Shown here in pieces: positions 1 to 16,447 of a DNA stretch of 64,000 nt. Both the position numbers and the translations under genes were made by a program. The notes below the pieces were generated by a model, which made no database searches, was not told the DNA's origin, and saw nothing but the letters and a program-made list of their open reading frames with translations. Each line of letters begins with the position of its first letter. Position 1 is the stretch's first letter. The stretch spans positions 124,001 through 188,000 of the forward strand of contig JAFWCB010000008.1 of assembly GCA_017537025.1 (NCBI GenBank), in the 5' to 3' direction. This DNA comes from Sediminibacterium sp. (GTDB taxonomy: Bacteria > Bacteroidota > Bacteroidia > Chitinophagales > Chitinophagaceae).

Positions 1-2
1 AG

Positions 3-1199
3 AAACTGAATCAATCCATTATTAAATCTATCACCTATAGCCTATTACCTATAACCTGCTTAGCATTTGTTCTATGGCCATTTATTAACGGTACAGATGG
101 GCTTTTGCCAACAGCCTATTTGCTGCTAAAACTGGTTGGCTTAACTGTTTCGCTTCTATTACTTTGGTATGATATAGACAAGGGTAACCCGCTTTTAAAG
201 CAAATATGTTCAGGTATACAAAAAGCTAATTGTAATGCGGTACTCAATACCAAAGCAGCATCTTTATTTGGTGTTTTAACTTGGAGCGAGGTTGGGTTTA
301 TTTATTTTTCCGGTAGTTTGTTATTTGCATCATTTGCAGGTATTAAAGAGATAATGCCTGTATTATGTAGCTTATCGCTTTTAGCTTTTCCCTATATATT
401 CTTCTCTATTTATTATCAATGGAGGATTGCGAAACAATGGTGTGTGCTTTGTTTACTTGTTCAGTCTGTATTATTATTAGAAACAGTTCTGGTATTAATA
501 GGTACCCGTATATCAGTAGATACTGTTATAAATACAGTTAATAATTATTGGATTATAGCTATTATCTCTATAGCTATTCCCACTATAAGCTGGTTCTTAG
601 TAAAGCCATTATTGAAGAAATTACAAAAAGCAAAGTATGAGAAAAGAAGCTATTTGCAGCTAAAGTATAACGATCAAGTATTTTGGTCTTTACTACAAAA
701 ACAAAAGTCTATAGTAGAGCATGACACAGAAGGTTTAGGAATATTAATTGGTAACCCTAACGCTAACCATACAATTGTTAAAGTATGTAACCCATATTGT
801 GGCCCTTGCGCTAACGCGCACCCTGAGCTAGAGAAGGTTATTGCACAAAATCCCAATATAAATGCTCAAATTATTTTTTCAGTGAGTAATAGCGAAGATG
901 ACTATAGAGTGAAACCGGTAAAGCATTTATTGGCAATAGCCGAAAAGAGTAATGAGCAGCTAACACACAAAGCATTAGACGATTGGTATTTAGCCACCGA
1001 GAAAGACTATAACTCGTTTGCTAATAAATATCCGATGAATGGAGAGTTAAAAATGCAAACGGCAAAAATTGAGAAAATGAGCAATTGGTGTAATAATGTT
1101 GGCATTCAATATACCCCAACCCTTTTTATTGATGGCTACGAGCTACCAAAAAATTATCAATTAAAAGATATTAACTATTTTATCCATGAAGATATATAA
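3..1199 (+). CDS. VKOR-DsbA-like disulfide oxidase, 5'-partial
   Basis: The frame is open to the left edge, so the start lies outside the window; the TTG at 105 is only an internal codon. The N-terminal part is a multi-helix vitamin K epoxide reductase (VKOR) domain with the loop cysteines (SGIQKANCNAVL), the conserved WSEVG segment and the active CxxC (WCVLC). After a hydrophilic linker comes a thioredoxin/DsbA-like domain with YCGPC and a cis-Pro-type TPTLF motif. VKOR-thioredoxin fusions oxidise cysteines in the periplasm while passing electrons to quinone. The gene lies 130 nt upstream of a Cys-rich peptide and shares the locus with a C39 exporter, so making disulfides in exported peptides is a reasonable inferred role. 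Related Bacteroidota proteins often carry an N-terminal C39-like domain; whether this one does cannot be seen here. Four CTATnnC heptamers (28-55) lie inside the open frame. Confidence 0.85.
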   Translation, partial: KLNQSIIKSITYSLLPITCLAFVLWPFINGTDGLLPTAYLLLKLVGLTVSLLLLWYDIDKGNPLLKQICSGIQKANCNAVLNTKAASLFGVLTWSEVGFIYFSGSLLFASFAGIKEIMPVLCSLSLLAFPYIFFSIYYQWRIAKQWCVLCLLVQSVLLLETVLVLIGTRISVDTVINTVNNYWIIAIISIAIPTISWFLVKPLLKKLQKAKYEKRSYLQLKYNDQVFWSLLQKQKSIVEHDTEGLGILIGNPNANHTIVKVCNPYCGPCANAHPELEKVIAQNPNINAQIIFSVSNSEDDYRVKPVKHLLAIAEKSNEQLTHKALDDWYLATEKDYNSFANKYPMNGELKMQTAKIEKMSNWCNNVGIQYTPTLFIDGYELPKNYQLKDINYFIHEDI

Positions 1200-1217
1200 C
1201 CTTATTTCTTTTTGCTT

Positions 1218-1301
1218 AGTACCCAAAAAGAAAAGTACAACGGTACTACACTTACAAAGTGGTTGTGCGAGCCAATTATCTGCTGATGCTTTAAGCTGCA
1301 G
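1218..1301 (+). promoter_or_regulatory. Structured 5' leader RNA, copy 1 (pseudoknot)
   Basis: This is the first of four related leaders. P1 is AGTACC (1218-1223) with GGTACT (1242-1247). P2 is GTACAAC (1235-1241) with GTTGTGC (1262-1268, one G-U). P3 is CACTT (1249-1253) with AAGTG (1257-1261). P1 and P2 cross, so the fold is an H-type pseudoknot with P3 inside it. Relative to copies 2-4 both strands of P1 and of P2 change together, which is covariation. A conserved tail (CCAATTATCTGCTGATGC, then AAGCTGCA) ends 28 nt before the peptide ATG at 1329. I do not recognise it as a named riboswitch. Confidence 0.75.
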
Positions 1302-1328
1302 GAATTTATCTAACTTTAATTTATCAAA

Positions 1329-1556
1329 ATGAAGCAGAAATTTCAAAACTTGGGGATTCTAATAAGTAGAAGTGCTCAAAAAAAGCTGATCGGAGGTGAT
1401 GAGACTCTTGGTGATGGTACTGGATCTTGTAGTGGCAATACATCTTCTGATACATGTTCAAACACATGTACTGTCACCTGCAATGGTACAAGTACTAGTG
1501 GAAACTGTAAGTGGAGTACTACTTATAGTAAGTGTTACTGTGTTGCGGGCTGCTAA
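1329..1556 (+). CDS. Cys-rich secreted peptide precursor 1 (GG leader)
   Basis: This 75-aa precursor has a leader ending in KKLIGG at residues 18-23, the double-glycine site cut by C39 exporters. The N-terminal pattern (MKQKFQNLG, then a basic/acidic helix, then GG) resembles the GG-leader natural-product precursors annotated in Bacteroidota. The core after GG is rich in Ser, Thr, Gly and Cys with 8 cysteines and no obvious lanthipeptide or radical-SAM enzyme nearby. The even Cys count and the adjacent VKOR-DsbA and TlpA genes suggest a disulfide-bonded product (inference). Function is unknown: bacteriocin, signal or other effector are all possible. It is preceded by leader RNA copy 1 and followed by an intrinsic terminator. 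An overlapping +1-frame ORF is a shadow. Confidence 0.8.
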   Translation: MKQKFQNLGILISRSAQKKLIGGDETLGDGTGSCSGNTSSDTCSNTCTVTCNGTSTSGNCKWSTTYSKCYCVAGC

Positions 1557-1578
1557 AACTAGCTTTTTTATTAAAATT

Positions 1579-1615
1579 AAAACAGGGTTATACTCTTTCA
1601 TTATAGCCCTGTTTT
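1579..1615 (+). terminator. Intrinsic terminator after peptide 1
   Basis: Inverted repeat AAAACAGGG (1579-1587) with CCCTGTTTT (1607-1615), extended inward by TTATA/TATAG pairing, ending in TTTT. It lies 23 nt after the peptide stop and would separate the peptide message from the TlpA gene downstream. Confidence 0.8.
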
Positions 1616-1737
1616 GATTGCATGTATGCTTCTATTGTTTTATTAATAAACCAAATACTTGAGTGGCTAGATTAAGCTAAGAAGAATACCTACTCAGAAA
1701 AAGTAATAATTATACCTTAATCAGTTTTCTACTAGTT

Positions 1738-2913
1738 ATGTTCAATTTAATTTCATCAGGTAATTTAAAGTTTAAAACTATAGTACTGATAGTTTATTTG
1801 TTATTTATACTTTTAAATTCAAGGAATTTTGTTTATTGCCAAAATTACAAAGTTCCTATGTTGAATGTAGGGGATAAGGCGCCCTCTTTAGGAATAAGTA
1901 AATGGCTTAAAGGAGATACTATTTATAAATTACAAAAAGGTAAGGTATACGTATTAGAGTTTTGGGCTACATGGTGTAAGCCTTGTATTGCATCAATGCC
2001 TCATCTTTCTTCAATGGCAAAAAAATATAAAGACAAGATTACTTTTTTGGCAATTAATGTCTTCGAAGACAATTCTATTTCTGATAATAGAGTTAAATCA
2101 TTTGTTGATAGTATGGGTTTTAACATGGACTATAGCGTTGCTATTCAGGATAGTAATTTCATGGAAACAAATTGGATTCATGCTTCTGGGTCCTCGGCGA
2201 TTCCTACGGCTTTCGTAATAAATAAGCAAGGTGAAATTTCATGGATAGGCCATCCAAGAGATATTAGTTTTGATTCTATCTTAAGAAATGTACTTAATGA
2301 TAAATGGGATATTCTAAAAGAGCGAAATAAAAGAGAGGAAAATAGATTTTTAGCTATGATGGATGATTCATTAAGGATAGAATTAATGCAATATTCAGAA
2401 AATATTAATTATCCAAATGATATGGGTAAACCTGATTCGGCAATTTTTGTTATTAATGAAATTATTAAATCTGAGCCAAGGCTTAAATATGCACCATTTA
2501 TTGCCTCGCATACTTTTAAAGCATTACTCAAAATAAACCAACAAAAAGCTTACGAATACGGTAAGAAAGTACTTGAAACAATAACATATGCAGATCCAGC
2601 CTATGATGTAATTATTGGGCAAATAGATTGGTATTCAACTAAACTAGTGCTTACCCATAAAATCTATAGACTTGGTACAATTGCTTACCAAATGAAACTT
2701 GATAAAATTGCTCCAGAAGTTTTTAGCGAGGTGGCGCCGAAATATTATCACCGGAAAGCAAGTTGGCATATTCTTGCAAATGAAATACAACAGGCGATTA
2801 ATGCGGAGCAGGCAGCAATTAATTTATTAAAGACGAATTCTAATTATTCAACCATTGAGTTAAATCATTATATGTTATTACTAGCGAAGTATAAAAAAAT
2901 GCTTATGCCTTAA
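1738..2913 (+). CDS. TlpA-like thioredoxin-fold protein with C-terminal extension
   Basis: 391 aa with an N-terminal hydrophobic signal (about residues 10-35). The TlpA/AhpC-TSA-type thioredoxin fold spans about residues 45-195: FWATWCKPC gives the redox CxxC, and AIPTAFVI holds the cis-proline. The remaining ~190 residues are helical, TPR-like and without recognised catalytic residues, an arrangement seen in many Bacteroidota TlpA proteins. TlpA-family proteins act in the periplasm as disulfide reductases or isomerases. Being placed between a Cys-rich peptide gene and the C39 exporter, it may shuffle or reduce disulfides of the exported peptides together with the VKOR-DsbA protein (inference). 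Confidence 0.85.
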   Translation: MFNLISSGNLKFKTIVLIVYLLFILLNSRNFVYCQNYKVPMLNVGDKAPSLGISKWLKGDTIYKLQKGKVYVLEFWATWCKPCIASMPHLSSMAKKYKDKITFLAINVFEDNSISDNRVKSFVDSMGFNMDYSVAIQDSNFMETNWIHASGSSAIPTAFVINKQGEISWIGHPRDISFDSILRNVLNDKWDILKERNKREENRFLAMMDDSLRIELMQYSENINYPNDMGKPDSAIFVINEIIKSEPRLKYAPFIASHTFKALLKINQQKAYEYGKKVLETITYADPAYDVIIGQIDWYSTKLVLTHKIYRLGTIAYQMKLDKIAPEVFSEVAPKYYHRKASWHILANEIQQAINAEQAAINLLKTNSNYSTIELNHYMLLLAKYKKMLMP

Positions 2914-2992
2914 TTTCAAATCGATTTTAGTATAAGGCTTACTAAGTTATATAGAACAATATTAGGGTGTTGCTAATTAAAATTAGTAAAAA

Positions 2993-5251
2993 TTGAGTTT
3001 TTTTCTTCTCCGACAGCAAAGTCAAATGGACTGCGGCCCTACTTGCTTGTACATGATAAGCAGGTATTACGGGAGGGTATTTGCTATAGAGCATTTGAGG
3101 CAGTTAACGGAAATCGGGAAGGAAGGGGTGAATCTGTTAGGTATTAGTGATGCTGCGGAGAAGATAGGCTTACAAACAACAGCATTGCAACTAACCTATG
3201 AAAAACTAATAAATGAAGCCCCCAAACCGGCGATTTTACACTGGGGGCAAAACCATTTTGTAATTTTAGTTCCACAAAAAAAGCATTGGTTTGGGAAGGC
3301 ACTCACTAAAATAACTATAGCTGACCCTGCTACTGGTATTATTACTATTGATAAAGCATTATTCCTCCAAAAATGGGTCAGCGATAAAAATGCTGATGGA
3401 GAACCTATTGGTATTGCATTACTGCTAGAGCCCGAAGCAGATTTTTATACGGCTACTTATAAAAAAGATTTTGAGGAGAAGAAAAAAAATTATGGCAGCC
3501 AGTTAGTTAGTTATATACGTCCATATACAAAGCTTATCATCCAACTCTTTTTAGGGGTTGTATTAGGTAGTTTATTACAACTAGTATTCCCCTTTTTAAC
3601 ACAAAGTATAGTTGACGTTGGTATCAATACCCAAAACCTACAGTTTGTGTATATCGTACTCCTTGCCCAACTGGCTTTATTTGTTGGTAAACTAAGTGTA
3701 GAATTTATCAGAAGCTGGATACTATACCATATAAGTAACAGGATCAATATTACGATACTTACTAGTTTTTTAATAAAATTGATGAAGTTACCACTATCTT
3801 ATTTTGATAGTAAGAAAACGGGAGATATACTCCAAAGAATGAATGATCATAAACGTATTCAAAACTTTTTAACAGGTACATCTTTAAATACTTTTTTCTC
3901 TCTATTTAATCTGATTATTTTTTCAATAGTTCTACTAAACTACAATACCCTCATATTTGGTGTATTTATTACCGCCAGCGCCATATATATTTTATGGATA
4001 TTAGTTTTTCTTAAAAAGCGTAAAGAATTAGATTATAAACAATTCGATATTGCTTCTGCCGAACAAAGTAAAACTATACAGCTTGTACAGGGTATGCAAG
4101 AAATAAAACTGCATGGTAGCGAAAAACAACAACGCTGGCAATGGGAGCATTTGCAAGCTGCTATGTTTAAAGTGGGCATGAGGGGTTTATCACTCAATCA
4201 ATGGCAACAAACTGGTGCTTTTTTTATTAATGAGGGTAAGAATATCCTCATCACTTTTATAGCAGCTACTGCTGTTATACAAGGACAAATTACGCTTGGA
4301 GCCATGCTGGCTATACAGTATATAATTGGTCAGCTTAACGCACCTATTGAGCAAATGATAGGTTTTGTACAAAACTGGCAATTGGCAAAAATTAGTTTAG
4401 ATAGGTTACACGAAATAAACCAATTAGAAGATGAGGAGCCGGTTCATATAGAAAATGGAACAGTGCATCAACTATTAGTTGAACTACCTACCATTAAATC
4501 TATCAAGCTCCAAAACATTAGTTTTACCTATACAGGCGCTGGTAACGAGCCGGTACTTAAAGATATCTCCATGGATATACCCGATGGTAAGTTAACAGCA
4601 ATAGTAGGCACAAGCGGAAGTGGTAAAACAACATTACTAAAACTCCTACTTAAATTTTATGCGCCACTAAAAGGAGATATATACATAGGTAATACAAATG
4701 ATTCTACTGGCATTAACTTGAACTTATTGAGCCATAGTGCCTGGCGAAAAAGTTGTGGGGTAGTAATGCAGGATAGTTTTATTTTTTCCGATACGATTGC
4801 TAAAAATATTGCTGTAGGAGAAGATTATCCCGATAAAGTAAAACTCAGACATGCAGCGAATACCGCCAATATTAATGGATTTATTGAGAGCCTGCCACTT
4901 GCCTATAATACCAAAATTGGCGCAGAAGGTACGGGTATTAGTACGGGACAAAGACAAAGAATACTAATAGCCAGGGCAGTATATAAGAATCCCGATATTA
5001 TTTTATTAGACGAAGCTACCAACTCACTCGATGCTAATAATGAAAGTATTATTCTTCAGAACCTCAATCACTTTTTTAAAGGGAAAACAGTAATAGTAGT
5101 AGCACATAGATTGAGTACGGTGCGTAATGCCGATAATATTGTAGTACTACATCAAGGAGTTATTACAGAACAAGGAACACATGAAGAACTTACTGCCTTA
5201 AAGGGTGAATATTTTGGATTAGTAAAAAATCAACTCGAACTTGGAAACTAA
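2993..5251 (+). CDS. C39-peptidase ABC exporter (PCAT type)
   Basis: 752 aa. The start is TTG; an in-frame stop at 2987-2989 leaves no earlier choice, and the next ATG (3026) would fall right before the catalytic Cys. The N-terminal peptidase C39 domain (1-150) has QMDCGPTC with the catalytic Cys, HWGQNHFVI with the His and DPATG with the Asp. A six-helix ABC membrane domain (about 160-440) follows. The ATPase domain (about 500-750) has Walker A GTSGSGKTT, signature STGQRQR, Walker B IILLDEAT and the H-loop VVAHRLST. This family cuts double-glycine leaders on the cytosolic side and exports the core peptide. All catalytic residues are present, so it should process the peptides in this locus. 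HlyD follows 5 nt downstream. Confidence 0.95.
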   Translation: MSFFLLRQQSQMDCGPTCLYMISRYYGRVFAIEHLRQLTEIGKEGVNLLGISDAAEKIGLQTTALQLTYEKLINEAPKPAILHWGQNHFVILVPQKKHWFGKALTKITIADPATGIITIDKALFLQKWVSDKNADGEPIGIALLLEPEADFYTATYKKDFEEKKKNYGSQLVSYIRPYTKLIIQLFLGVVLGSLLQLVFPFLTQSIVDVGINTQNLQFVYIVLLAQLALFVGKLSVEFIRSWILYHISNRINITILTSFLIKLMKLPLSYFDSKKTGDILQRMNDHKRIQNFLTGTSLNTFFSLFNLIIFSIVLLNYNTLIFGVFITASAIYILWILVFLKKRKELDYKQFDIASAEQSKTIQLVQGMQEIKLHGSEKQQRWQWEHLQAAMFKVGMRGLSLNQWQQTGAFFINEGKNILITFIAATAVIQGQITLGAMLAIQYIIGQLNAPIEQMIGFVQNWQLAKISLDRLHEINQLEDEEPVHIENGTVHQLLVELPTIKSIKLQNISFTYTGAGNEPVLKDISMDIPDGKLTAIVGTSGSGKTTLLKLLLKFYAPLKGDIYIGNTNDSTGINLNLLSHSAWRKSCGVVMQDSFIFSDTIAKNIAVGEDYPDKVKLRHAANTANINGFIESLPLAYNTKIGAEGTGISTGQRQRILIARAVYKNPDIILLDEATNSLDANNESIILQNLNHFFKGKTVIVVAHRLSTVRNADNIVVLHQGVITEQGTHEELTALKGEYFGLVKNQLELGN

Positions 5252-5256
5252 TAGCT

Positions 5257-6594
5257 ATGCCAACACCTTCAGGATCATATAGCTTAGAAGCCATATTAGA
5301 GGCGGTGAATATTGAAGCCCCCGACACTACTGATAGGATATATAGTAATGAAGTAATAGAGATCATTAGTCATAAACCGGCTTGGATTGTACGTTATGGT
5401 ATAGGACTATTTTTTGTAATTATAGTAGCCCTTTTTACTATGTGCTTTTTTATTTATTACCCTGATATTATAAAGGCACCGGTAAGAATAGTGGGAGAGA
5501 ACCTGCCTAAACAAATAGTCAGCAGAACAGAAGCTAAATTGGTAACTCTCTTTGCGAAACAAAATACTGTAGTAAAGCAAGGAGATATATTAGCTGTTTT
5601 ATTCAGTAATGCAGATTATAAAGAGGTTCTGGCCTTTGAGGGCTGGATAAATCAGGCTGAGAAACAAGTGAATGCGTATAATCTAAACGAGGTGCCTACA
5701 TTACCCCAATTGGCTAATTTAGGAGACTTACAAAAAAGCTATCAAGAGGTATCACTACAGTTGTATCAACTAAGTTGGAGTGCACCTAATGGTTATTTTA
5801 TACAGAAGCAGGAAGCAATAAAAAAAGACTTAGCGGTTATAGAAGCATTAAAGCAAAACGGGAATAAGCAAAAAAGTTTGATTACACAGGATTTGGCACT
5901 GCAACAAAATCTGCTTCAAGTAAATGAGCGCATGGTAAATGAGAAAGTGCTGGCGCCATTAGATTTAAATAAGGATAAATCGGTAGTAATAAGTAAGCAG
6001 CAACAGTTGGTACAAACTGATGCGAACACCCTTAATCAAGATGCAAGCCTTGTTGCAAAATCAAAGGAATTAGTTGAAATAGAAAAGAACCGAAACGATA
6101 TTATTCAGAATTTTAAAACGGCTTTATTCAATGCTAAAACGGCTTTAGCTGATTGGAAAAATAAATATATCATCACTGCGCCAGAAGCAGGGAAGGTTCA
6201 ATTCTCTTCTTATTTTCAGGAGAATAGCTGGATAAAACAAGGGCAGGAATTATTCTATATTGTACCTGAGCAGCCAATTCTATTTGCTGAGGTAATGGCA
6301 TCTCAACAGAACTTTGGTAAAATAAAACAAGGTCAACAAGTAAATATTGCTTTAAACAGCTTCCCAAGAAATGAGTTTGGGATATTGAAAGGAATTATTA
6401 ACTATATACCAGCAGTACCCTATAAGGATAGTGCCTTCCTGTTGAAGGTACAACTAACCAAAGGACTCACCACTTCTTACAATAAACAATTACCCTTCAC
6501 CAATAACTTAAGCGGCACCGCTGAAATTATCACCCAAGATGCTTCCCTAATCGATAGGCTACTGTATCAATGGCGAGGGTTGTGGAGGAGGTAA
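5257..6594 (+). CDS. HlyD-family membrane-fusion adaptor
   Basis: 445 aa, 5 nt after the C39 exporter and surely co-transcribed. A short cytoplasmic N-terminus is followed by one membrane helix (about 47-69), a lipoyl/barrel-sandwich segment split by a long coiled coil (about 130-290), and a C-terminal beta-barrel region. HlyD adaptors link the inner-membrane exporter to an outer-membrane channel in type I secretion. No TolC-like gene is in the window, so the outer-membrane partner is probably encoded elsewhere. Its last ~213 codons are present again at 11504-12145 and its last ~19 codons at 9367-9427. Confidence 0.93.
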   Translation: MPTPSGSYSLEAILEAVNIEAPDTTDRIYSNEVIEIISHKPAWIVRYGIGLFFVIIVALFTMCFFIYYPDIIKAPVRIVGENLPKQIVSRTEAKLVTLFAKQNTVVKQGDILAVLFSNADYKEVLAFEGWINQAEKQVNAYNLNEVPTLPQLANLGDLQKSYQEVSLQLYQLSWSAPNGYFIQKQEAIKKDLAVIEALKQNGNKQKSLITQDLALQQNLLQVNERMVNEKVLAPLDLNKDKSVVISKQQQLVQTDANTLNQDASLVAKSKELVEIEKNRNDIIQNFKTALFNAKTALADWKNKYIITAPEAGKVQFSSYFQENSWIKQGQELFYIVPEQPILFAEVMASQQNFGKIKQGQQVNIALNSFPRNEFGILKGIINYIPAVPYKDSAFLLKVQLTKGLTTSYNKQLPFTNNLSGTAEIITQDASLIDRLLYQWRGLWRR

Positions 6595-6632
6595 TTATTT
6601 TCAAAAAAAGGGACTTTTGTACCCACCTGAAA

Positions 6633-6664
6633 TTTTGTACTGCTAATAATACTTAATAAATTTA
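6633..6664 (+). promoter_or_regulatory. Promoter of peptide-2 leader
   Basis: TTTTG (6633-6637), 19 nt, then TAAATTTA (6657-6664). This fits the Bacteroidota vegetative promoter (TTTG, then TAnnTTTG). The predicted start near 6671 puts the whole pseudoknot at the 5' end of the message. The same arrangement is found at copies 3 and 4. Confidence 0.65.
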
Positions 6665-6681
6665 TGTAACTTTTTTGTCTT

Positions 6682-6768
6682 GAATCCAAGAGAATAGCTT
6701 AACGGTTCTACACTTATCCGAAATAAGTGGTTGAGGGGCCAATCATCTGCTGATGCTTAAAGCTGCAG
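6682..6768 (+). promoter_or_regulatory. Structured 5' leader RNA, copy 2 (pseudoknot)
   Basis: P1 is GAATC (6682-6686) with GGTTC (6704-6708, one G-U). P2 is GCTTAAC (6697-6703) with GTTGAGG (6730-6736; six pairs, the outer one mismatched). P3 is CACTTAT (6711-6717) with ATAAGTG (6723-6729). The helices abut without gaps (P2 5' strand to P1 3' strand, P3 to P2 3' strand), as expected for coaxial stacking. The conserved tail ends 27 nt before the peptide-2 ATG. Confidence 0.75.
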
Positions 6769-6795
6769 ATTAACTTTAACTTTAATTTTTAACAA

Positions 6796-6999
6796 ATGAA
6801 ACAAAAATTTGAAAATTTAGGAAGCGTTTTATCAAAGGGTGATGCTAAACGTATTTTTGGATCTACCGGATGCGTAGATGATTGTATCGCTAATACGAGT
6901 CAATGTAGCTATTATCATTATTGTGATTCGTTCGGCGGCTGTGATAAAAATCCCGTGTTTTGCTGTAATATTTATTGTAACTCAGAACAGCCCGGTTAG
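6796..6999 (+). CDS. Cys-rich secreted peptide precursor 2 (GS leader)
   Basis: 67 aa. The leader (MKQKFENLGSVLSKGDAKR, then IFGS) is nearly the same as that of peptide 1 but the cleavage motif reads Gly-Ser instead of Gly-Gly. C39 peptidases accept GA or GS in some families, so it may still be cut. The core has 8 cysteines, including a CC pair and a terminal YCNS stretch that matches the end of peptide 3 (YCNA). It follows leader RNA copy 2 directly after hlyD and is followed by an 18-bp perfect hairpin. Function is unknown; disulfide bonding is inferred from the even Cys count and the locus. Confidence 0.78.
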   Translation: MKQKFENLGSVLSKGDAKRIFGSTGCVDDCIANTSQCSYYHYCDSFGGCDKNPVFCCNIYCNSEQPG

Positions 7000-7000
7000 T

Positions 7001-7040
7001 GAAAATAATATCCCTAATTACTATTAGGGATATTATTTTC
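7001..7040 (+). terminator. 18-bp perfect hairpin after peptide 2
   Basis: An 18-nt arm (7001-7018), 4-nt loop and perfectly complementary arm (7023-7040) follow the peptide stop by 1 nt, then TTTTG. It should terminate most peptide transcripts, leaving the plug-like gene at 7063 to read-through or its own promoter. It could also stabilise the 3' end of the peptide message. Confidence 0.75.
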
Positions 7041-7062
7041 TTTTGTTAGAACTTAAAATCTT

Positions 7063-8898
7063 ATGAAAAAATTCTTTGTAATAATAACTTTATTTATTTC
7101 TTCACATTTTGCTCAAGCTGCTGATCTTTTCTCTATTAAGGTAGATAAGGCAGAAAAACTCTCGGTCGATAGTTTATTTTTTCAATTGATAGATCAGCAG
7201 CGTGTTATCGAGAATGATGGTATTGTTAAATTGGATATTTTCCATTCGCCTTCAGGATATAGAGAGCAAAAAATGGCTTGGATGGAAACCGGTATTTGTA
7301 ATCAATACGTTTCCTTTAAGGGATTAAAGGACGGTAAACTATTTATACGGGCAACTACTACTTTTGGAGATGTTGAAAATAGTAAATCGGAGTTTTTGAT
7401 TTTTTTAGAAGATGCAAAAATTATTTCTATCCAAGATGTTTACAGTAATGAACTACCGACTTTGAGGGTTGAAGCAGAGTTGGGCGAATTATTGGAAGGG
7501 TTTTCTAATAAAATAGCAATCAGTACACTCAATAGTAAAACAGGTAAACTGCAAAAAGAGCAGGTGAGTATTACAACGGAAAATGGAGATACATTAAGCA
7601 AGTTTACGGTTCCGGGTAAAAGATTAATTGATATGTACTTGGAAAAGGGAAAGAAATACTACTTACAAACTACCTCCGTAAATAAACCTATTGAGTTAAA
7701 AGGTACTAGCTATGGATATGGCATAAAATGTAAACAAATAGAGGATTCTATAGATATTGAGATTTTTAGGGGCAAACAGCAACCAGTTGAAAAACTTCAT
7801 TTTTGTTTACAGGTTAATAATAAGCTAGATACGATAGCCAGTTTTGTATTTGATGATTCTCTATTTATTATGAACACCCGCTTTTATTGGCCTAAAATAA
7901 GTAATCAGCACATTAGTTTTCTGCTAATGAACAATGATAGTTATGTTTTAGCCAAGCGCTACTGGGAGCCTGATAATAACTTACTACAACTGAGTCCATT
8001 TTACACAAAATTGGATACTCATACAATTAGTATTGATAGTGCTTTTACAATGCAGTTTACTTGCAAGGGCTGCGATAGAGAAAAGATTACCTATCAAGTT
8101 ACAGATAAGGATAATATATTATCGAGTATTGGACAAGTACAATGGCTATCGGATAGTGTATTTTCTATCAATAATTTGCAGTTGGTAGGAAAGGGATATT
8201 TAGTGTTTGGTGTAGACAGGAATAATATCAATTGGAAGCCAATTATTCAAATAATACCATTGCCTATTCCAAAACCTAGCCCCATTTTTTATGTAAATGC
8301 GGACGATATAAAAAGCCTTGTAAACAATAATATTGTTAATCCAAAAGATATGGTTGATGTAGTTACTAAAAATGATTTATTACCTGATGTAACTGTTACC
8401 GGGATTAAGAAAACACGAATTGAGGAGTTAGAGGAGAAATATGTAAATAATAAAATGCTCACTTCTTTATTTTCAGTGAATATAAATGTTCTAGATGATG
8501 AAAGTAGTAGAAATGGGCTGACCCTTTTAAAATATGTAAGTCAAAAAATACCTATAACGCAGTTAAAAATTGTAGGCTCAATGTATACACCATCAATAAA
8601 GCGTGAAGCACTATATTTTAGAGGTGGTGAAGTAGAATATTGGATAGATGAGATTTTTTATGCAGGAGAATCCGGTGCACAATTAGCTAATAATATTTTT
8701 GCTGGGGATGTAGCATATATAAAATTGATAAAAAAACCGATCAGAGGCTTAGTTGGTTCCGGAGGTAATTTATTAAGAGGTGAAAGCCTTGCACCTCAAG
8801 GAGCTCTAGTTATTTATACAAAAAAGGGAGATGAAAAGGAATTGGATAAAAGATTTAACCAACGAGTGGCAATAGCAGGAATACAGATTTTAGAATAA
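7063..8898 (+). CDS. Secreted protein with barrel-less TonB-plug-like C-terminus (A)
   Basis: 611 aa with a clear signal peptide (MKKFFVIITLFISSHFAQA). The long N-terminal part (25-440) looks beta-rich and resembles the MG2/carboxypeptidase-regulatory-like modules of Bacteroidota surface proteins; no enzyme motif is visible. The C-terminal ~150 residues end in DVAYIKLIKKP, a Gly-rich stretch and ALVIYTKKG, typical of the TonB-receptor plug end, but no beta-barrel follows. The proteins at 9878 and 12831 share this ending (DIAYIKF and IAYIKV, then IVIYTKK). Each of the three follows a Cys-rich peptide, so a role in peptide transit, reception or self-protection at the outer membrane is plausible but unproven. 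Confidence 0.7.
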   Translation: MKKFFVIITLFISSHFAQAADLFSIKVDKAEKLSVDSLFFQLIDQQRVIENDGIVKLDIFHSPSGYREQKMAWMETGICNQYVSFKGLKDGKLFIRATTTFGDVENSKSEFLIFLEDAKIISIQDVYSNELPTLRVEAELGELLEGFSNKIAISTLNSKTGKLQKEQVSITTENGDTLSKFTVPGKRLIDMYLEKGKKYYLQTTSVNKPIELKGTSYGYGIKCKQIEDSIDIEIFRGKQQPVEKLHFCLQVNNKLDTIASFVFDDSLFIMNTRFYWPKISNQHISFLLMNNDSYVLAKRYWEPDNNLLQLSPFYTKLDTHTISIDSAFTMQFTCKGCDREKITYQVTDKDNILSSIGQVQWLSDSVFSINNLQLVGKGYLVFGVDRNNINWKPIIQIIPLPIPKPSPIFYVNADDIKSLVNNNIVNPKDMVDVVTKNDLLPDVTVTGIKKTRIEELEEKYVNNKMLTSLFSVNINVLDDESSRNGLTLLKYVSQKIPITQLKIVGSMYTPSIKREALYFRGGEVEYWIDEIFYAGESGAQLANNIFAGDVAYIKLIKKPIRGLVGSGGNLLRGESLAPQGALVIYTKKGDEKELDKRFNQRVAIAGIQILE

Positions 8899-9366
8899 AA
8901 TCCTTAACCTTGTGAGCTTCAAGAGGTAGGCCTACGCTCAATCCTTTCTTTTATTTTAACAAAATATCAGCGTATCTCTATTCAAATTGTATCTAAGATT
9001 GCCTAATTTTCGTGTGCTCAGGAATACTATATTTTTCTTGCAACATTAATATACTAAACTTCCGATTTTGGCGTACCTCACTCTAGTCTAATTTCTCTGG
9101 CTTAGCTTCAATCTAACAAAATCGTTCTCGGATGAATTGATTAGCAATGAGGTAAATAGTATGTTTTCATATGTTGAAAATATAAATCTCCATATTTTCA
9201 CTAGAGCAGTTTAATGAAAATATAAATTTTTTTAACTAAGGAGAACCAAATAAAAAAATAAAAATTGTAAATACTAAATTCTATGCTGCCTGAAGTATTC
9301 TCCATGAAAATAAATTGCTCGCCTTCAGTCTGATTGCATGCATAGCCGGTTCTATCCAATCATTAT
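8899..9366 (+). other. Gene-poor spacer, no recognisable gene
   Basis: About 470 nt of AT-rich sequence with stops in all frames. The minus strand near 9290-9370 reads a short open stretch (IEPAMHAIRLK, SNLFSWRILQ) ending at a stop, possibly the worn end of an unrelated gene or transposase, but it cannot be assigned. No terminal inverted repeats were seen. It lies exactly where a copied HlyD tail begins. Confidence 0.5.
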
Positions 9367-9427
9367 TCAAAATGCCTCTCTAATTGATAGGTTACTGTAT
9401 CAATGGCGAGGGTTGTGGAGGAGGTAA
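9367..9427 (+). pseudogene. HlyD 3'-end remnant (short copy)
   Basis: This 61-nt stretch encodes SLIDRLLYQWRGLWRR and a stop, the exact C-terminus of the HlyD at 5257-6594. The match continues past the stop through promoter and leader up to the peptide ATG (9367-9629 against 6534-6796) with only a few differences. The upstream part of hlyD is missing, so this is a duplication scar and not a gene. Confidence 0.85.
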
Positions 9428-9465
9428 TTATTTTCAAAAAAAGGGGCTTTTGTACCCACCTGAAA

Positions 9466-9497
9466 TTTTGTACTGCTAATAATGCTAAATAAATTTA
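9466..9497 (+). promoter_or_regulatory. Promoter of peptide-3 leader
   Basis: TTTTG (9466-9470), 19 nt, then TAAATTTA (9490-9497). Same sequence and spacing as at copy 2, within the duplicated block. Confidence 0.65.
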
Positions 9498-9514
9498 TGT
9501 AATTCTTTTGCCTA

Positions 9515-9601
9515 GAATCCAAGAGAATAGCTTAACGGTTCTACACTTATCCAAAATAAGTGGTTGAGCGGCCAATCATCTGCTGATGCTTAAAGCTGCA
9601 G
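9515..9601 (+). promoter_or_regulatory. Structured 5' leader RNA, copy 3 (pseudoknot)
   Basis: P1 is GAATC (9515-9519) with GGTTC (9537-9541). P2 is GCTTAAC (9530-9536) with GTTGAGC (9563-9569; seven pairs including one G-U). P3 is CACTTAT (9544-9550) with ATAAGTG (9556-9562). Nearly identical to copy 2; the single change in P2 (G to C) restores the outer pair. Confidence 0.75.
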
Positions 9602-9629
9602 GACTTTAATTAACTTTAATTTTAACAAG

Positions 9630-9863
9630 ATGAAAAATTTAAATTTAGGGAGAGTTCTTTCAAAACTTGAACAACGAGTTGTTGCTGGCGGGTGTTCCGC
9701 CCCTCATTGCGATCAACTTTACTCAACCGGCCTAGGGGAGTGTAGAACTACCCCTGAGCATTTCTTAGAAACAGGAATAATGTTTAAAGAGGGTTGTATA
9801 GAAAGAGTAAACGCAAATTATTTTAATTGTTGGGATGATTACTGTAACGCTCAATCTTCTTAG
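9630..9863 (+). CDS. Cys-rich secreted peptide precursor 3 (GG leader)
   Basis: 77 aa. The leader ends in QRVVAGG at residues 15-21 and keeps the LG...LSK pattern of the other precursors. The 56-residue core starts directly with Cys and has 6 cysteines, ending CWDDYC then NAQSS; the CW[DE]D...C ending is shared with peptide 4 (CWEDC). The core is otherwise unrelated to peptides 1 and 2, so leaders are conserved while cores have diversified. It follows leader copy 3 and lies 14 nt before the plug-like gene at 9878 with no terminator between them, so these two are probably co-transcribed. Confidence 0.78.
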   Translation: MKNLNLGRVLSKLEQRVVAGGCSAPHCDQLYSTGLGECRTTPEHFLETGIMFKEGCIERVNANYFNCWDDYCNAQSS

Positions 9864-9877
9864 ATAAATTTAGTTAT

Positions 9878-11098
9878 ATGCGAGTGTGTATTATCATACT
9901 TCCTTTTTTTTTAATACTTCAACATAACTTTTGTTTTGCACAGCTGAAAGAAAAGAATGTTTTGATAGTTTTAAAAGATAATAAACTTACGGCAGGTCAA
10001 TCAGTATCATTAGTATTAAACCCGGGCAGCAAATTAGCTGTCCCGGTTTTCTTGCAAATAGCTATTATTGATCAGTCTTTCTCGATAGTACACCAACAAA
10101 GAATTCTTTTTAATAAGGCAATAGAATATCGATGGGATTTACCAGCCGAATTAAAGAAAGGATTATATATCGCTACAGTGTCAGTAGAAAATGAAAATGG
10201 TACCGAAACAATTGGTATCCCTTTTTCTTACCTATATACCGAGATCCAAATACCCAAGACTAATGTAATGCTTCTTGTTCAGTTAGATTCCATTTTTTAT
10301 GGCTTTAATCTTAAGTTTAAAACCAATATAGCTTCAGGTAAACCTGTTTACTATTCATTGGCAACACAAGATTCAGTAAAAGGAAATGGCATTGTAAAGG
10401 TAGATAGTCTAGGTCTCATCGAAGTAGGGGGTAATAATTTTTATGAAAATGGAGAAATTGTATTTTCTCTGCTTGATACATGTAATAAATGTATTATTGA
10501 GCCCTTCCAAATAACTAACAGCAAATCGAATATTGATTATTTAACGTCTATTTTTAAACAGGTAGATAATAATCTAAATTTTAATGATAAAAATATTAGT
10601 ATAACAGAGAATATAAGTAATCTGCCAAATGTAGTTGTTCAAACAAGGGTTAAAACTCGTAAAGAATTGTATGAAGCTAAATACGTGAATAATTTTATGC
10701 TAAAGAGCCCAATGAGTAGAGAGGTGATTGTAGATGATGATCCTCTTGCTGTAAATTATAATAATAATTTAGCAATGTATTTGGTAAAAGTATTTCCTGG
10801 TTTATATATTAAAAATGGAGGATTATATTACAGATTAGGGAGTGTTGCATATATAGTAGATGAGGTGCTAGATAAGCCAGCACCAGATTACTTGTCTGAC
10901 ATCGCCTATATCAAATTTTTGCCTGAGCCACCAAGAGGTTTGAATACAGGGGCGGGATTCTTTAATAAAGCAAATAGAGCTATTGCAGGAACCACCGCAA
11001 CTATAGTGATTTATACTAAAAAAAATTATGAGGAATCTTTTATACCTAAGAAGACAATAAGCTTACAAGTGCAAGGGACAATCGACGCAACTAAGTAA
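9878..11098 (+). CDS. Secreted protein with barrel-less TonB-plug-like C-terminus (B)
   Basis: 406 aa with signal peptide (about 1-22). It is a shorter relative of the 611-aa protein at 7063: the beta-rich N-terminal region is reduced, while the C-terminal module is kept (ELYEAKYVNNFML against ELEEKYVNNKML in the first protein, then a plug-like stretch ending IVIYTKKN). No barrel follows. It begins 14 nt after the peptide-3 stop, the tightest peptide-plug pairing in the locus. Function unknown; see the entry at 7063 for the possible roles. Confidence 0.7.
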   Translation: MRVCIIILPFFLILQHNFCFAQLKEKNVLIVLKDNKLTAGQSVSLVLNPGSKLAVPVFLQIAIIDQSFSIVHQQRILFNKAIEYRWDLPAELKKGLYIATVSVENENGTETIGIPFSYLYTEIQIPKTNVMLLVQLDSIFYGFNLKFKTNIASGKPVYYSLATQDSVKGNGIVKVDSLGLIEVGGNNFYENGEIVFSLLDTCNKCIIEPFQITNSKSNIDYLTSIFKQVDNNLNFNDKNISITENISNLPNVVVQTRVKTRKELYEAKYVNNFMLKSPMSREVIVDDDPLAVNYNNNLAMYLVKVFPGLYIKNGGLYYRLGSVAYIVDEVLDKPAPDYLSDIAYIKFLPEPPRGLNTGAGFFNKANRAIAGTTATIVIYTKKNYEESFIPKKTISLQVQGTIDATK

Positions 11099-11128
11099 AT
11101 ATTAATATTAACATACTAATATGTACCA

Positions 11129-11507
11129 AGAAATTTTTTATATCCTTTATTTCCTCTCCTTCCCGCCAAACGTAAAACCTAAACTTAATATCATTTCATA
11201 ACAACCAAAAGCTTGATGGGCCTTCCCTTCATATACTTTTAAACCGGAATAACGGGCATAATCTACCTTATTAGAAAATTCAAGAAAAACAGTTCGGAAG
11301 AAAGTGGCTTTCACTGCACCCTCTGCACCTATATTCCAACCGCCAAATTGGAAACCATCCTTATTAGCCTGACCAAAAAACTATTTTCTACATGCGGTAT
11401 AACCGGACCAATACCGGCTTTGGCTAATACATCGAGCTTCACTTTTTTATTTTTTGATTCTGCCCAATTCCACCTCTTTACAATATTGAACAATAAAAAA
11501 TTAGCGC
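11129..11507 (-). pseudogene. Truncated copy of the beta-barrel-like gene at 16500
   Basis: This segment matches the 3' half of the minus-strand gene at 16500-17294 (16480-16866) with only scattered differences, covering its C-terminal ~120 codons. A 1-nt loss in an A-run near 11380 breaks the frame. The copy stops abruptly at 11504-11512, where HlyD sequence begins. It has no 5' half and is a pseudogene. Confidence 0.85.
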
Positions 11508-12145
11508 CATTAGATTTAAATAAAGATAAATCGGTAGTAATTAGTAAACAGCAGCAGTTAGTACAAGCCGATGCAAGCACCCTTAATCAAGATGCAAGCC
11601 TTATTGCAAAATCAAAAGAATTAGTTGAAATAGACAAGAATAGAAAAGATATTATTCAAAATTTTAAAACAGCATTGTTCAATGCCAAAACGGCTTTAGC
11701 AGATTGGAAAATAAGATATATTATAATGGCTCCTGAAACAGGTAGAGTACAATTCTCTTCATACTTTCAAGAAAATAGCTGGATAAAACAGGGGCAGGAA
11801 TTATTTTATATTGTACCTGAACAACAGATACTATTTGCAGAAGTAATGGCGCCACAACAAAATTTTGGCAAAATAAAACAAGGGCAAGCAGTAAATATTG
11901 CCCTGAATGGCTTCCCTCGAAATGAGTTTGGAGTATTAAAAGGAACAATAAATTATATACCAACTGTTCCATATAAAGATAGTGCTTTCTTGTTGAAAGT
12001 ACAATTATCAAAGGGGCTTACTACTTCTTACAATAAGCAATTACCCTTTACTAATAACTTAAGTGGCGTTGCTGAAATCATTACCCAAGATGCCTCCCTT
12101 ATAGATCGTTTACTATACCAATGGAGAGGATTATGGACAAGGTAG
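11504..12145 (+). pseudogene. HlyD C-terminal fragment
   Basis: This codes for ~213 residues matching HlyD residues ~233-445, from APLDLNKDKS to the final QWRGLW. Many nucleotide differences are synonymous, so the two copies diverged while still under selection. The membrane helix and first half of the adaptor are absent. The open frame upstream (from 11348) is antisense of the truncated barrel copy, so the 265-codon ORF is a chance chimera. It is most likely non-functional as an adaptor, although expression as a fragment cannot be excluded. Confidence 0.85.
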
Positions 12146-12184
12146 GAATTTTCCAAAAAAGAGACTTTTGTACCCCCCAGTTGA

Positions 12185-12216
12185 TTTTGTGAATTAAATA
12201 GAGTAAGGTAATTTTA
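12185..12216 (+). promoter_or_regulatory. Promoter of leader copy 4
   Basis: TTTTG (12185-12189), 19 nt, then TAATTTTA (12209-12216). The spacer sequence differs from copies 2 and 3 but spacing and boxes are kept, which supports real promoter function. Confidence 0.65.
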
Positions 12217-12234
12217 TAAAGTTCCTTTTGCATC

Positions 12235-12318
12235 GAACCCAAAAGAATAGCTTAACGGTTCTACATTTTTTTAAAAAGTGGTTAAGCGACCAATAATCTG
12301 CTGATGCTTAAAGCTGCA
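12235..12318 (+). promoter_or_regulatory. Structured 5' leader RNA, copy 4 (pseudoknot)
   Basis: P1 is GAACC (12235-12239) with GGTTC (12257-12261). P2 is GCTTAAC (12250-12256) with GTTAAGC (12281-12287), now fully Watson-Crick. P3 is CATTTTT (12264-12270) with AAAAGTG (12274-12280): both strands differ from copies 2-3, yet pairing is kept. Unlike the others it lies ~250 nt before its peptide; a 26-codon hydrophobic ORF comes first. Confidence 0.75.
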
Positions 12319-12358
12319 TTAATTTAATGAATTTTCATTTTAGCAAAACGAAAGATAA

Positions 12359-12439
12359 ATGATTTTACGTATTAAAATATTAGTAATTACATTATTGATT
12401 CTAATATTATTCATAAATAAATCCCCACCTCTTTTTTAG
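12359..12439 (+). CDS. Possible 26-aa hydrophobic peptide
   Basis: This short ORF starts 41 nt after leader copy 4, roughly where the other copies have their peptide ATG. It encodes a strongly hydrophobic peptide (MILRIKILVITLLILILF, then a polar tail), long enough to span a membrane. There is no homologue in the other three units and the AT-rich sequence makes chance hydrophobic ORFs likely. Listed as tentative only. Confidence 0.25.
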   Translation: MILRIKILVITLLILILFINKSPPLF

Positions 12440-12568
12440 CATTATAGATATCAGAATATTTGGTTCTTATATGTAATAGACATATCATTAAGATGACTGC
12501 AGTCTATATTGTTTTTAGATAAAAAAGTTTTAGAAAAAATTATATAAAATTTCATAAAAAGAAAAATC

Positions 12569-12733
12569 ATGGAAAAAATTAATGAATTAGGTACTCCCTT
12601 GAGTAAAGATCAAGCGAAGAAAATAGTTGGCGGTGTTACCTGTGTTAATGTTAATTGCACTTATGTAGTACTTCCGCCTGGGGTATGTACCGTAGGAAGC
12701 AGTGAAGCAAGATGCTGCTGGGAGGATTGCTGA
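12569..12733 (+). CDS. Cys-rich secreted peptide precursor 4 (GG leader)
   Basis: 54 aa. The leader (MEKINELGTPLSKDQAKK, then IVGG) matches the LG...LSK...GG pattern of the other three precursors. The 32-residue core has 6 cysteines and ends CCWEDC, close to the CWDDYC ending of peptide 3. It is the shortest and cleanest member. A hairpin terminator follows at 12755, then the plug-like gene at 12831. The distance to leader copy 4 is unusual, so it may be translated from the same message or from a closer promoter that I cannot identify. Confidence 0.75.
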   Translation: MEKINELGTPLSKDQAKKIVGGVTCVNVNCTYVVLPPGVCTVGSSEARCCWEDC

Positions 12734-12754
12734 AATATAAAAACTTAAATCGTT

Positions 12755-12789
12755 AATATTGCCAAATTAATAAATAATTTGGCAATATT
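12755..12789 (+). terminator. Hairpin after peptide 4
   Basis: A 15-nt arm (12755-12769), 5-nt loop and complementary arm (12775-12789). The T-run after it is short, so it could be a weak terminator allowing read-through into the gene at 12831, or an mRNA 3' stabiliser. Confidence 0.6.
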
Positions 12790-12830
12790 TTACTAATTAC
12801 ATCTTATATCGTTGCCAATTAAAAACCTGT

Positions 12831-15251: not shown

Positions 15252-15259
15252 TCTTTAGC

Positions 15260-16447
15260 ATGAAATACATTCTACTTCTGTGTTTTATATTAATAAATGG
15301 GTTATTGGTTGCCCAGTATAAAATTTCCGGGAAAATTCTAGACAAAAAAACGAAGCAACCCGTTGAGGGGGTTAGTGTTTTCTTAAGTAAAACAACAATC
15401 GGCACGGTTACTAATAATAAAGGTGAGTTTCAATTAGAGGGTATTAAACCGGGAAAATATGAGCTTATAGCAAAATCTCTAAATTACGAGGAGTTTGTTC
15501 AGTTTATACAAACAGCTGAAGAAAACCAATTACTTGTTATAACGCTTAACCCTACTACCAATATGCTAAAAGATGTAATTGTTCAACAATACGATGAAAA
15601 TGGATGGGAAAAATGGGGAGCTATTTTTACCAGCTATTTTATTGGATCACCAGATTTATCAAAAAAATGCATATTTAAAAACCCAGAAGCTGTTAAATTT
15701 CGATATAATAGTAAAACAAATAAACTCATTGCTTTTAGTAACGAAAATTTAATTTTTAATAATTTAACCCTTGGGTATAAAATTACCTATATATTAGAGA
15801 AATTTGAAATTGACTTTACTGAAAATACTTTTTCTTTTAATGGATATCCATTGTTTCAAGAGTTAAAACCTAAAAATGAAAAGCAGGCTAGTCAATGGTA
15901 TCTGATGAGATCCAATACATATAAAGGGTCTTTACATCATTTTATTAATAGCTTATATAAAGATAATTTAGTAAGAGATAGTTTTGAAATAAGAGCTATT
16001 CAGATAATTGATGATGAAGAAAAAACTAGGGTAAAAAAAATACTAAAGAACTTACATGGAGAAGTGATAACAACCGACTCCAATAATTATTACCAAAAAG
16101 TTAGAGGTTTAGGACCAAACGAGTACAAAGTAGTGTTGGATAAGCTCATACCCTGCAACAGTATAGTTCAATTCAGTTTAAATGACTCCAATTCAAAAAC
16201 ATTATATTTTACAAACTATTTAGAAATTACTTTTTTAAAAAAGCGAATCCCCAAAGAATATGCTAAAATATTGCCAGTTTATAGAAGCAATGAGTTTATT
16301 AAAAATGAAATTAGTTTAAGATCAAATACGCCTATTAAGCTTTATCCTAATAGCAATTATTATGACGGATATAATTTATTAATTGAGGGATTTTGGGCCT
16401 GGTCGGAAAAACTGGCAACAATGTTGCCAAGTAACTATAATCTTTAG
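15260..16447 (+). CDS. Secreted carboxypeptidase-regulatory-like domain protein
   Basis: 395 aa, 8 nt after the 806-aa plug-like gene, so co-transcribed. Signal peptide (about 1-18, LLVAQ), then a CarboxypepD_reg-like beta-sandwich (20-105) with KISGKILDKKTKQPVEGVSV and TVTNNKGEFQLEGIKPGKYE, the domain usually found at the N-terminus of SusC-type receptors. The rest (110-395) is unrecognised, with mixed alpha/beta composition; Bacteroidota proteins of this shape are usually hypothetical and surface associated. The pairing with the plug-like gene suggests a two-protein envelope complex (inference). Confidence 0.65.
   Translation: MKYILLLCFILINGLLVAQYKISGKILDKKTKQPVEGVSVFLSKTTIGTVTNNKGEFQLEGIKPGKYELIAKSLNYEEFVQFIQTAEENQLLVITLNPTTNMLKDVIVQQYDENGWEKWGAIFTSYFIGSPDLSKKCIFKNPEAVKFRYNSKTNKLIAFSNENLIFNNLTLGYKITYILEKFEIDFTENTFSFNGYPLFQELKPKNEKQASQWYLMRSNTYKGSLHHFINSLYKDNLVRDSFEIRAIQIIDDEEKTRVKKILKNLHGEVITTDSNNYYQKVRGLGPNEYKVVLDKLIPCNSIVQFSLNDSNSKTLYFTNYLEITFLKKRIPKEYAKILPVYRSNEFIKNEISLRSNTPIKLYPNSNYYDGYNLLIEGFWAWSEKLATMLPSNYNL

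Follow-up and report, generated by a model that had tools for sequence, protein, structure and literature searches.

To our knowledge, structured leaders dedicated to exported bacteriocin-like peptides have been little described. The closest described RNAs contain pseudoknots. In the pistol ribozyme a strictly 2-nucleotide (nt) right-shoulder junction holds the cleavage site, and pistol RNAs are reportedly often near phage genes (PMC4604425). Here we describe a leader RNA that is present in four copies in a 64,000-nt stretch of a Sediminibacterium sp. genome (GenBank assembly GCA_017537025.1, contig JAFWCB010000008.1, positions 124,001 to 188,000; hereafter the window) and that is associated with short Cys-rich peptides. 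A first-pass annotation of the window had read the element as an H-type pseudoknot of two crossing helices, P1 and P2, with a third, P3, inside, and we confirmed all four copies, with P1 starting at 1218, 6682, 9515, and 12235.

Fold and covariation of the leader RNA

P1 indeed crosses P2, but the earlier description missed two helices, P0 and P4, and P1 crosses two helices rather than one. The overall fold, P0-P1-P2-P3 plus the tail hairpin P4, is thus larger than first described. P0 is a hairpin just upstream, first visible in a 22-copy alignment as an inverted repeat flanking the P1 5' strand (TTCTTTTCG ... CGAAAAGAA in many copies); its 9-nt loop ends with that strand. P1 forms when the P0 loop pairs with the strand between P2 and P3. 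In the alignment, the P1 3' strand directly follows the P2 5' strand, and P3 lies inside P2, so that P0, P2, P3, and P4 are nested while P1 crosses both P0 and P2. The tail begins with CCAA, followed by P4 around UGANGC...AAGC, the arms of P4 being CUGC/GCAG in most Sediminibacterium copies. Among the 43 copies outside the genus g43, 16 columns of the tail reach at least 90% identity, and all unpaired columns that do so lie in the tail, except for one A before P2. The tail pattern occurs four times in the window and not at all in 100 shuffles. From comparative sequence evidence we conclude that the leader is a new structured RNA class, with a predicted fold that is well supported by evolution.

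Covariation had originally been read directly from the window copies. The pairings given for P1, P2, and P3 hold as written for copies 1, 3, and 4; in copy 2 the 3' strand of P2 is GTTGAGG, not GTTGAGC, and the terminal P2 pair is a G-G mismatch. Because copies 2-4 were duplicated from one unit, covariation within the window amounts essentially to one comparison, copy 1 against copies 2-4. It proved real in a wider alignment, and it is this comparison of sequences beyond the window that settles the matter.

The wider alignment (A6) contains 49 matches, 46 of them distinct, from 38 sources (the window and 37 of 89 loci) chosen to avoid near-duplicates. True copies outside these 46 include L002, L004, L007, L014, L017-L019, L082, two strong matches (G021 and G106), and L105, a further g43 locus outside the set of g43 copies read. 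Weak model matches (L061, L073, L074, L075, L076, L083, L084, L085, L078:1578, L068:2888, and end-cut pieces in L011 and L079) were excluded because P1 or whole helices were missing, because they lay inside other genes, or because the locus end cut them; L068:2888 (= L094:11217) may be a decayed true copy. Our covariance models (R1, R2, and R3) were all built without P1.

Across the whole structure in A6 (38 pairs), 94.0% of 1719 cells are standard pairs and both sides change in 31 pairs. The covariation score was 0.576, compared with 0.206 in shuffled alignments (0/500 reached the observed value) and 0.076-0.126 in slid ones. P1, although never modelled, was paired in 94.1% of cells and scored 0.469 versus 0.103 shuffled. 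As A6 had been fitted to the other helices, the count was redone on 16 of these copies aligned with MAFFT without reference to structure (A7), which gave a score of 0.516 versus 0.215 shuffled with 87.2% paired for the whole structure, and 0.637 versus 0.156 with 94.6% paired for P1. A tree-based null was devised for this analysis, redistributing parsimony changes on a FastTree tree of the A6 rows in 40 simulations. Six of 6023 column pairs were significant, all of them within the structure: two each in P1 and P2, one each in P3 and P0, and none in P4. The clearest single case is L060, with P0 UUUUAUCUG/CAGGUAAAA, P1 UAGGC/GCCUA, and P2 GUUUGG/CCAAAC, where the sequence is unlike the window copies and the pairing is kept. 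G-U cells outnumber A/C cells, which would be wobbles on the opposite strand, by 108 to 33; this supports the RNA strand proposed here, in a count that is somewhat favoured by the models having been built on the same strand.

The minimum-energy folds of window copies 1 and 3 are P0-P2-P3-P4, and RNAalifold, run on the model-fitted alignment, predicts P0, P2, and P3 and does not return P4. By folding energy the window copies do not stand out (z -0.05 to -0.90). Four copies taken from other genera have low energies (z -2.05 to -5.24), but the minimum-energy fold of one of them, L060, does not match the model.

Distribution and neighbouring genes

The genome searches were made on overlapping samples, and those of more than 40 genomes ran stricter filters, which lose weak matches. 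The genome that carries the window (about 95% complete) contains only the four window copies at E ≤1. With model R1, 17 of 101 genomes of the same genus gave matches at E ≤1. Thirty matches in 11 of these were strong (E 3.5e-9 or better), and the other six genomes had weak matches only, which are outside the copies studied. In the family, R1 matched 7 of 195 genomes at E ≤0.1, the window's own included, and R2 matched 20 of 394. Of the latter, 14 had a best E of 5.0e-9 or better, two belonged to g43 (8.5e-5 and 2.1e-4), and four were weak and were judged to be chance matches. Together, the strong and g43 matches cover ten genera of Chitinophagaceae besides Sediminibacterium. Searches within three of those genera found the element in 2/4, 2/4, and 1/20 genomes, and in g43 in 2/10, so that its occurrence is patchy. 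No convincing match came from outside the family: the class sample gave 5 of 395 genomes at E ≤0.1 (two inside the family and three weak), the order sample 10 of 298 at E ≤0.001, all inside it, and the phylum sample, searched with R3, 2 of 375 at E ≤0.01, both inside it. Exact tail matches in named records fall in Sediminibacterium or in Sphingobacteriia metagenome-assembled genomes.

The distinct copies in A6 are followed in 38 of 46 cases by a short open reading frame (ORF) with a GG/AG leader (GS once), in four by a thioredoxin-like gene, in one by a transposase-like ORF (L005:1496, by eye), in one by a peptide frame that is broken early (L068), and in two by the contig end (L059 and L071). 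A script that did not require Cys had counted 35 GG, six other, and five none; three rows were moved to GG by hand, namely window 6663 (FGS), L005:234, and L086:2736, the ORFs of the latter two having been cut by the locus end in that count but being whole in the leader-bearing regions. In 16 such regions, 28 of 33 ORFs matching a GG/Cys pattern lie within 300 nt downstream of a leader (four of them at more than 200 nt), which is not an unbiased rate since the regions were picked for holding leaders; one of the five pattern-matched ORFs away from leaders is clearly not such a peptide. The support that the first-pass annotation had asked for, an occurrence upstream of GG peptides elsewhere together with covariation, was thus found. 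The gene association is strong, and the leader is a putative regulator.

The spacer between leader and ORF is 23-51 nt in 37 of the 43 copies that have a following ORF, and AU-rich by eye. About 14 copies, e.g. L001, L026, L003, L070, and L072, appear by eye to carry an extra hairpin, P5, between the tail and the AUG, upstream of the start codon; its arms vary yet pair (GCUAUUU/AAAUAGC, GCUACUUU/AAAGUAGC, and GCUUCUUUU/AAAAGAAGC). No P5 was seen by eye in the spacers of window copies 1-3. In g43, where another hairpin stands in place of the tail, the spacer exceeds 120 nt in the two copies for which an ORF was found, as if a downstream module had been exchanged. Two loci from different genera, L005 (leader 1496-1606) and L059 (leader 1501-1613), resemble each other by eye a short way past the leader (AGCGTTGCGTTGTT...AGTTCTTTGAAA). 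The L005 sequence is followed by a transposase-like ORF of 275 amino acids (aa, by eye), and the two loci may carry the same kind of insertion element at this position.

The placement of the leader ahead of GG peptides thus agrees with the earlier annotation, but rather than at a lone promoter it often stands close behind a gene on the same strand. An ORF of at least 100 aa on this strand ends within 200 nt upstream in 37 of 46 copies, within 60 nt in 27, and overlaps P0 in eight. By tblastn with the window genes, VKOR-thioredoxin, TlpA-like, C39-ABC, and HlyD genes are all present in 7 of 15 regions (L092, L093, L095, L096, L099, L103, and L104; in L095 the VKOR match is spread over two frames). 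L102 has none of these four cluster genes and the other regions have one to three. In the fuller clusters, the leader lies between the thioredoxin-fold gene and the peptide gene. Sediminibacterium copies such as L002 and L007 may, as read by eye, have a small hairpin just before P0, UUAUUUUCUUUC-AUGA-GAAAGAAU, whose loop contains the VKOR-thioredoxin stop; this echoes the position of the stop within the P0 loop in other genera. We also considered an upstream ORF conserved across Sediminibacterium and rejected it, since stops interrupt the frame in the few copies read by eye.

The features of the window are collected in Table 1. The VKOR-thioredoxin gene may have its true start before the window edge. 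Peptide 4 gave a weak match to the NCBIfam class I lanthipeptide leader (E 0.014, under its cut-off). The hairpin behind peptide 2 would fit a short leader-peptide transcript. Units of 244 nt at 6525-6768, 9358-9601, and 12076-12319, each comprising the 3' end of the HlyD gene and a leader, are duplicated, the second and third with 93% and 64% identity to that of copy 2. A second duplicated pair, 5953-6252 and 11504-11803, is 87% identical, and a truncated HlyD remnant left by the duplication lies within the ORF at 11348-12145. Judged from these sequence relations, the duplications are a cassette expansion of the peptide locus.

Table 1. Positions of the leader copies and of the genes around them in the window
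Feature	Position	Strand	Details
VKOR-thioredoxin fusion	105..1199	+	Pfam VKOR 5e-14, Thioredoxin_4 5.7e-12; stop just upstream of copy 1
Leader copy 1	1206..1302	+	P0 1206-1214/1224-1232, P1 1217-1223/1242-1248, P2 1235-1241/1262-1268, P3 1249-1261; model match E 1.8e-21
Leader copy 1 tail	1269-1302	+	P4 1280-1301
Cys-rich GG-leader peptide 1	1329..1556	+	75 aa, 8 Cys; AUG 23 nt past modelled element
TlpA-like thioredoxin/redoxin gene	1738..2913	+	after peptide 1; Pfam Redoxin 1.6e-12
ABC transporter with peptidase C39 (GG-leader cleaving exporter)	2993..5251	+	Pfam Peptidase_C39 1.8e-27, ABC_membrane, ABC_tran
HlyD-type membrane fusion protein	5257..6594	+	Pfam HlyD_3 7e-12
Leader copy 2	6669..6769	+	P0 6669-6677/6687-6695, P1 6680-6686/6704-6710, P2 6697-6703/6730-6736, P3 6711-6729, P4 6747-6768
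Cys-rich peptide 2	6796..6999	+	67 aa; FGS instead of GG
Terminator-like hairpin	7001..7040	+	18 pairs, right after peptide 2
Leader copy 3	9502..9602	+	P0 9502-9510/9520-9528, P1 9513-9519/9537-9543, P2 9530-9536/9563-9569, P3 9544-9562, P4 9580-9601
Cys-rich GG-leader peptide 3	9630..9863	+	77 aa, 6 Cys
Leader copy 4	12222..12320	+	P0 12222-12230/12240-12247, P1 12233-12239/12257-12263, P2 12250-12256/12281-12287, P3 12264-12280, P4 12298-12319
Cys-rich GG-leader peptide 4	12569..12733	+	54 aa, 6 Cys

Proposed function of the leader

Promoters of Bacteroidota carry the motifs TTTG and TANNTTTG. Scored against this pattern, the regions upstream of 44 copies showed no enrichment (mean 7.25 versus 7.36 in shuffles), and sigma-70-type sites in window 1000-13000 are at chance level (49 versus 53.4 expected). 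A fair Bacteroidota-type match, with 9 of 10 letters, is present upstream of window copies 2-4. This match, and the duplication of cassettes in tandem, would suit an element that acts as DNA, either as a site where peptide cassettes recombine or as a conserved promoter. We regard such a role as most improbable, given that the G-U wobbles and the pseudoknot favour RNA on one strand and that the promoter-like scores do not exceed those of shuffles. Integron attC sites have conserved R'/R'' core motifs, which P2 resembles by eye in part of the Sediminibacterium copies, including window copies 3 and 4. In other genera its sequences are different, and because P2 varies the attC idea was dropped.

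Terminator-like sites in window 1000-13000 are no commoner than chance (5 versus 6.8 expected), and none lies between leader and AUG in the window, where a riboswitch acting by intrinsic termination is therefore not seen. Together with the 23-51 nt spacer, this makes control of translation or of mRNA stability likelier than control of termination. As the helices vary and the tail columns are conserved, the pseudoknot would be a scaffold, and recognition would fall on the tail. On balance we favour a new class of cis-acting mRNA leader, which would be recognised at its conserved tail and would set how well the peptide cistron is translated or how stable it is. Pairing of the P0 loop in P1 would create a compact double pseudoknot that bears the tail, with its CCAA and its P4 with UGANGC...AAGC. 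The RNA would be carried at the front of the peptide message; some copies probably receive read-through from an immediately preceding VKOR-thioredoxin or thioredoxin-like gene, and other copies sit behind a transporter gene or its remnant. Its action would most likely be post-transcriptional, on translation or stability of the cistron, with the tail recognised by a protein or a small ligand, so that export-bound disulfide-rich peptides would be produced at the right level and time.

A more specific and rather doubtful proposal is a riboswitch or protein-sensing RNA that would use the pistol-type pseudoknot as an aptamer scaffold and read the thiol/disulfide or export state of the cell, such that disulfide-rich exported peptides and their thioredoxins would be made only when foldable and exportable; in some genera a ribosome finishing the VKOR-thioredoxin gene in the P0 loop might act as its gate. 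An exported-peptide gene context is, as far as we know, unusual for riboswitches.

The close upstream genes, and the position of leaders between thioredoxin-fold and peptide genes, are also what one would expect of a constitutive processing or stability element inside a polycistronic message, in which the pseudoknot would protect the short peptide mRNA or mark its processed 5' end and keep the peptide in excess over enzymes and exporter, with no ligand involved. A terminator-like hairpin after 12 of 34 scored peptides (by our own rule, with no chance control) is in line with this, and so is the sequence variation of most helices, as in a scaffold. A purely mechanical block, however, would not need conserved CCAA, UGANGC, and AAGC bases, and we consider this explanation possible but tentative.

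The way the upstream gene ends suggests a further alternative, a translation-coupled switch in which the VKOR-thioredoxin stop lies in the P0 loop, and the terminating ribosome and the P0/P1 pseudoknot are mutually exclusive, which would couple peptide output to translation of the disulfide enzyme. Copies from seven genera outside Sediminibacterium do have an upstream gene that ends inside P0 with its stop in the loop; tblastn or the C-terminal sequence (YFLLE-stop or similar) marks this gene as VKOR-thioredoxin, and its last codons themselves form the P0 5' arm and loop. In Sediminibacterium and g94, by contrast, 0-12 nt separate the end of the VKOR-type gene from the modelled element. Moreover, an upstream ORF of at least 100 aa overlaps only 8 of 46 copies, six with a VKOR-type C-terminus and two with another gene, and although 42 of 46 copies have a stop triplet in one frame or another of the P0 loop, P1 pairing (UAG/CUA) accounts for this as well, so that we think this switch unlikely. 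A translating-leader attenuator would have a short ORF overlapping the structured leader in every member; the overlaps with longer ORFs are the same 8 of 46, and shorter upstream ORFs were inspected by eye for a few copies.

Several results weigh against a cis-acting leader that is recognised through its tail. The g43 copies that were read (L071, L072, L081, and L082; the genus provides 3 of the 46 distinct copies) retain the core P0-P3 and have a different hairpin in place of the conserved tail, which is thus not always required. Window copies 2 and 4, which may be decaying, do not reach the model fold at minimum energy. For P1 alone, two of five measures do not clearly exceed the shuffle control: their observed values were matched or passed in 49/500 and 147/500 shuffles with A6, and in 18/500 and 17/500 with A7. 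Only 6 of the 38 structure pairs attain significance in the tree-based test. Four copies (L046, L012, L048, and L089) are followed by thioredoxin-like genes instead of peptides, called by Pfam for L046 and L089 (weakly and below cut-off in L089) and by similar start for L012 and L048. Finally, the peptide ORF nearest copy 4 lies 245 nt downstream. Overall, the interpretation in the first-pass annotation is partly supported.

An orphan RNA class that has a well-supported fold and is tied to disulfide-rich exported peptides offers a way to study the timing of peptide warfare or signalling in Chitinophagaceae. The covariance model can also guide searches for further exported peptides, since small genes of this kind are easy to overlook.

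Comparison with known RNAs

The earlier annotation could not assign the leader to any named family, and this still holds: in Rfam 15, window 1-16000 gave eight matches, all below cut-offs and none on a leader, and no match at gathering level was obtained in 19 loci. The latter gave only RAGATH-7 at L005:275-495 (minus strand), at 28.6 bits against a gathering threshold of 111.8 (E 0.021), which overlaps the L005 leader (234-345). Neither a loss of covariation in the wider alignment nor an Rfam family that explains the element appeared. Nor did we find a description of such a leader RNA in the open-access literature, most subscription papers being outside the search.

A self-cleaving ribozyme on a pistol or pseudoknot-hammerhead scaffold is suggested by the connectivity. 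It is very unlikely, since cmscan, run to E 10 on window 1-16000 and to E 1 on the 19 loci, reported no pistol RNA (at the level of the Rfam model, the 10 conserved pistol nucleotides not being compared singly), the counterpart of the right-shoulder junction has shrunk to 0 nt in 38 of the 46 copies, and the conserved unpaired bases lie in the tail rather than between P2 and P3. The hammerhead core has the motif CUGANGA. It was not found next to the pseudoknot helix in the leader alignment, cmscan gave no hammerhead match, and a hammerhead-like reading of the tail UGANGC was rejected as a misfit with this core. The 0-nt junction, the missing core, and the absence of both families from the cmscan results place the leader as pistol-like in connectivity and not as a member, and pistol-type connectivity may thus have arisen for a purpose other than cleavage.

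Compared with the pistol ribozyme (PMC4604425), the leader has the same P0-P1-P2-P3 connectivity, with a P1 that pairs and covaries. It differs in having no fixed 2-nt junction (the last P3 and first P2 pairs both form in the 38 copies with 0 nt), in its added conserved tail hairpin, in its exported-peptide neighbours, and in lacking an Rfam match. The pseudoknot-containing hammerhead likewise has essentially the pistol connectivity; its conserved core, where helices I, PK, and III join, is not matched by anything in the leader, in which P2 runs straight into P1 (PMC11300833). With the SAM-V-type H-type pseudoknot riboswitches the leader shares a compact pseudoknot upstream of a gene that could control translation, but its P1 crosses two helices, its gene context is that of exported peptides, and it matches no Rfam family (PMC6061858).

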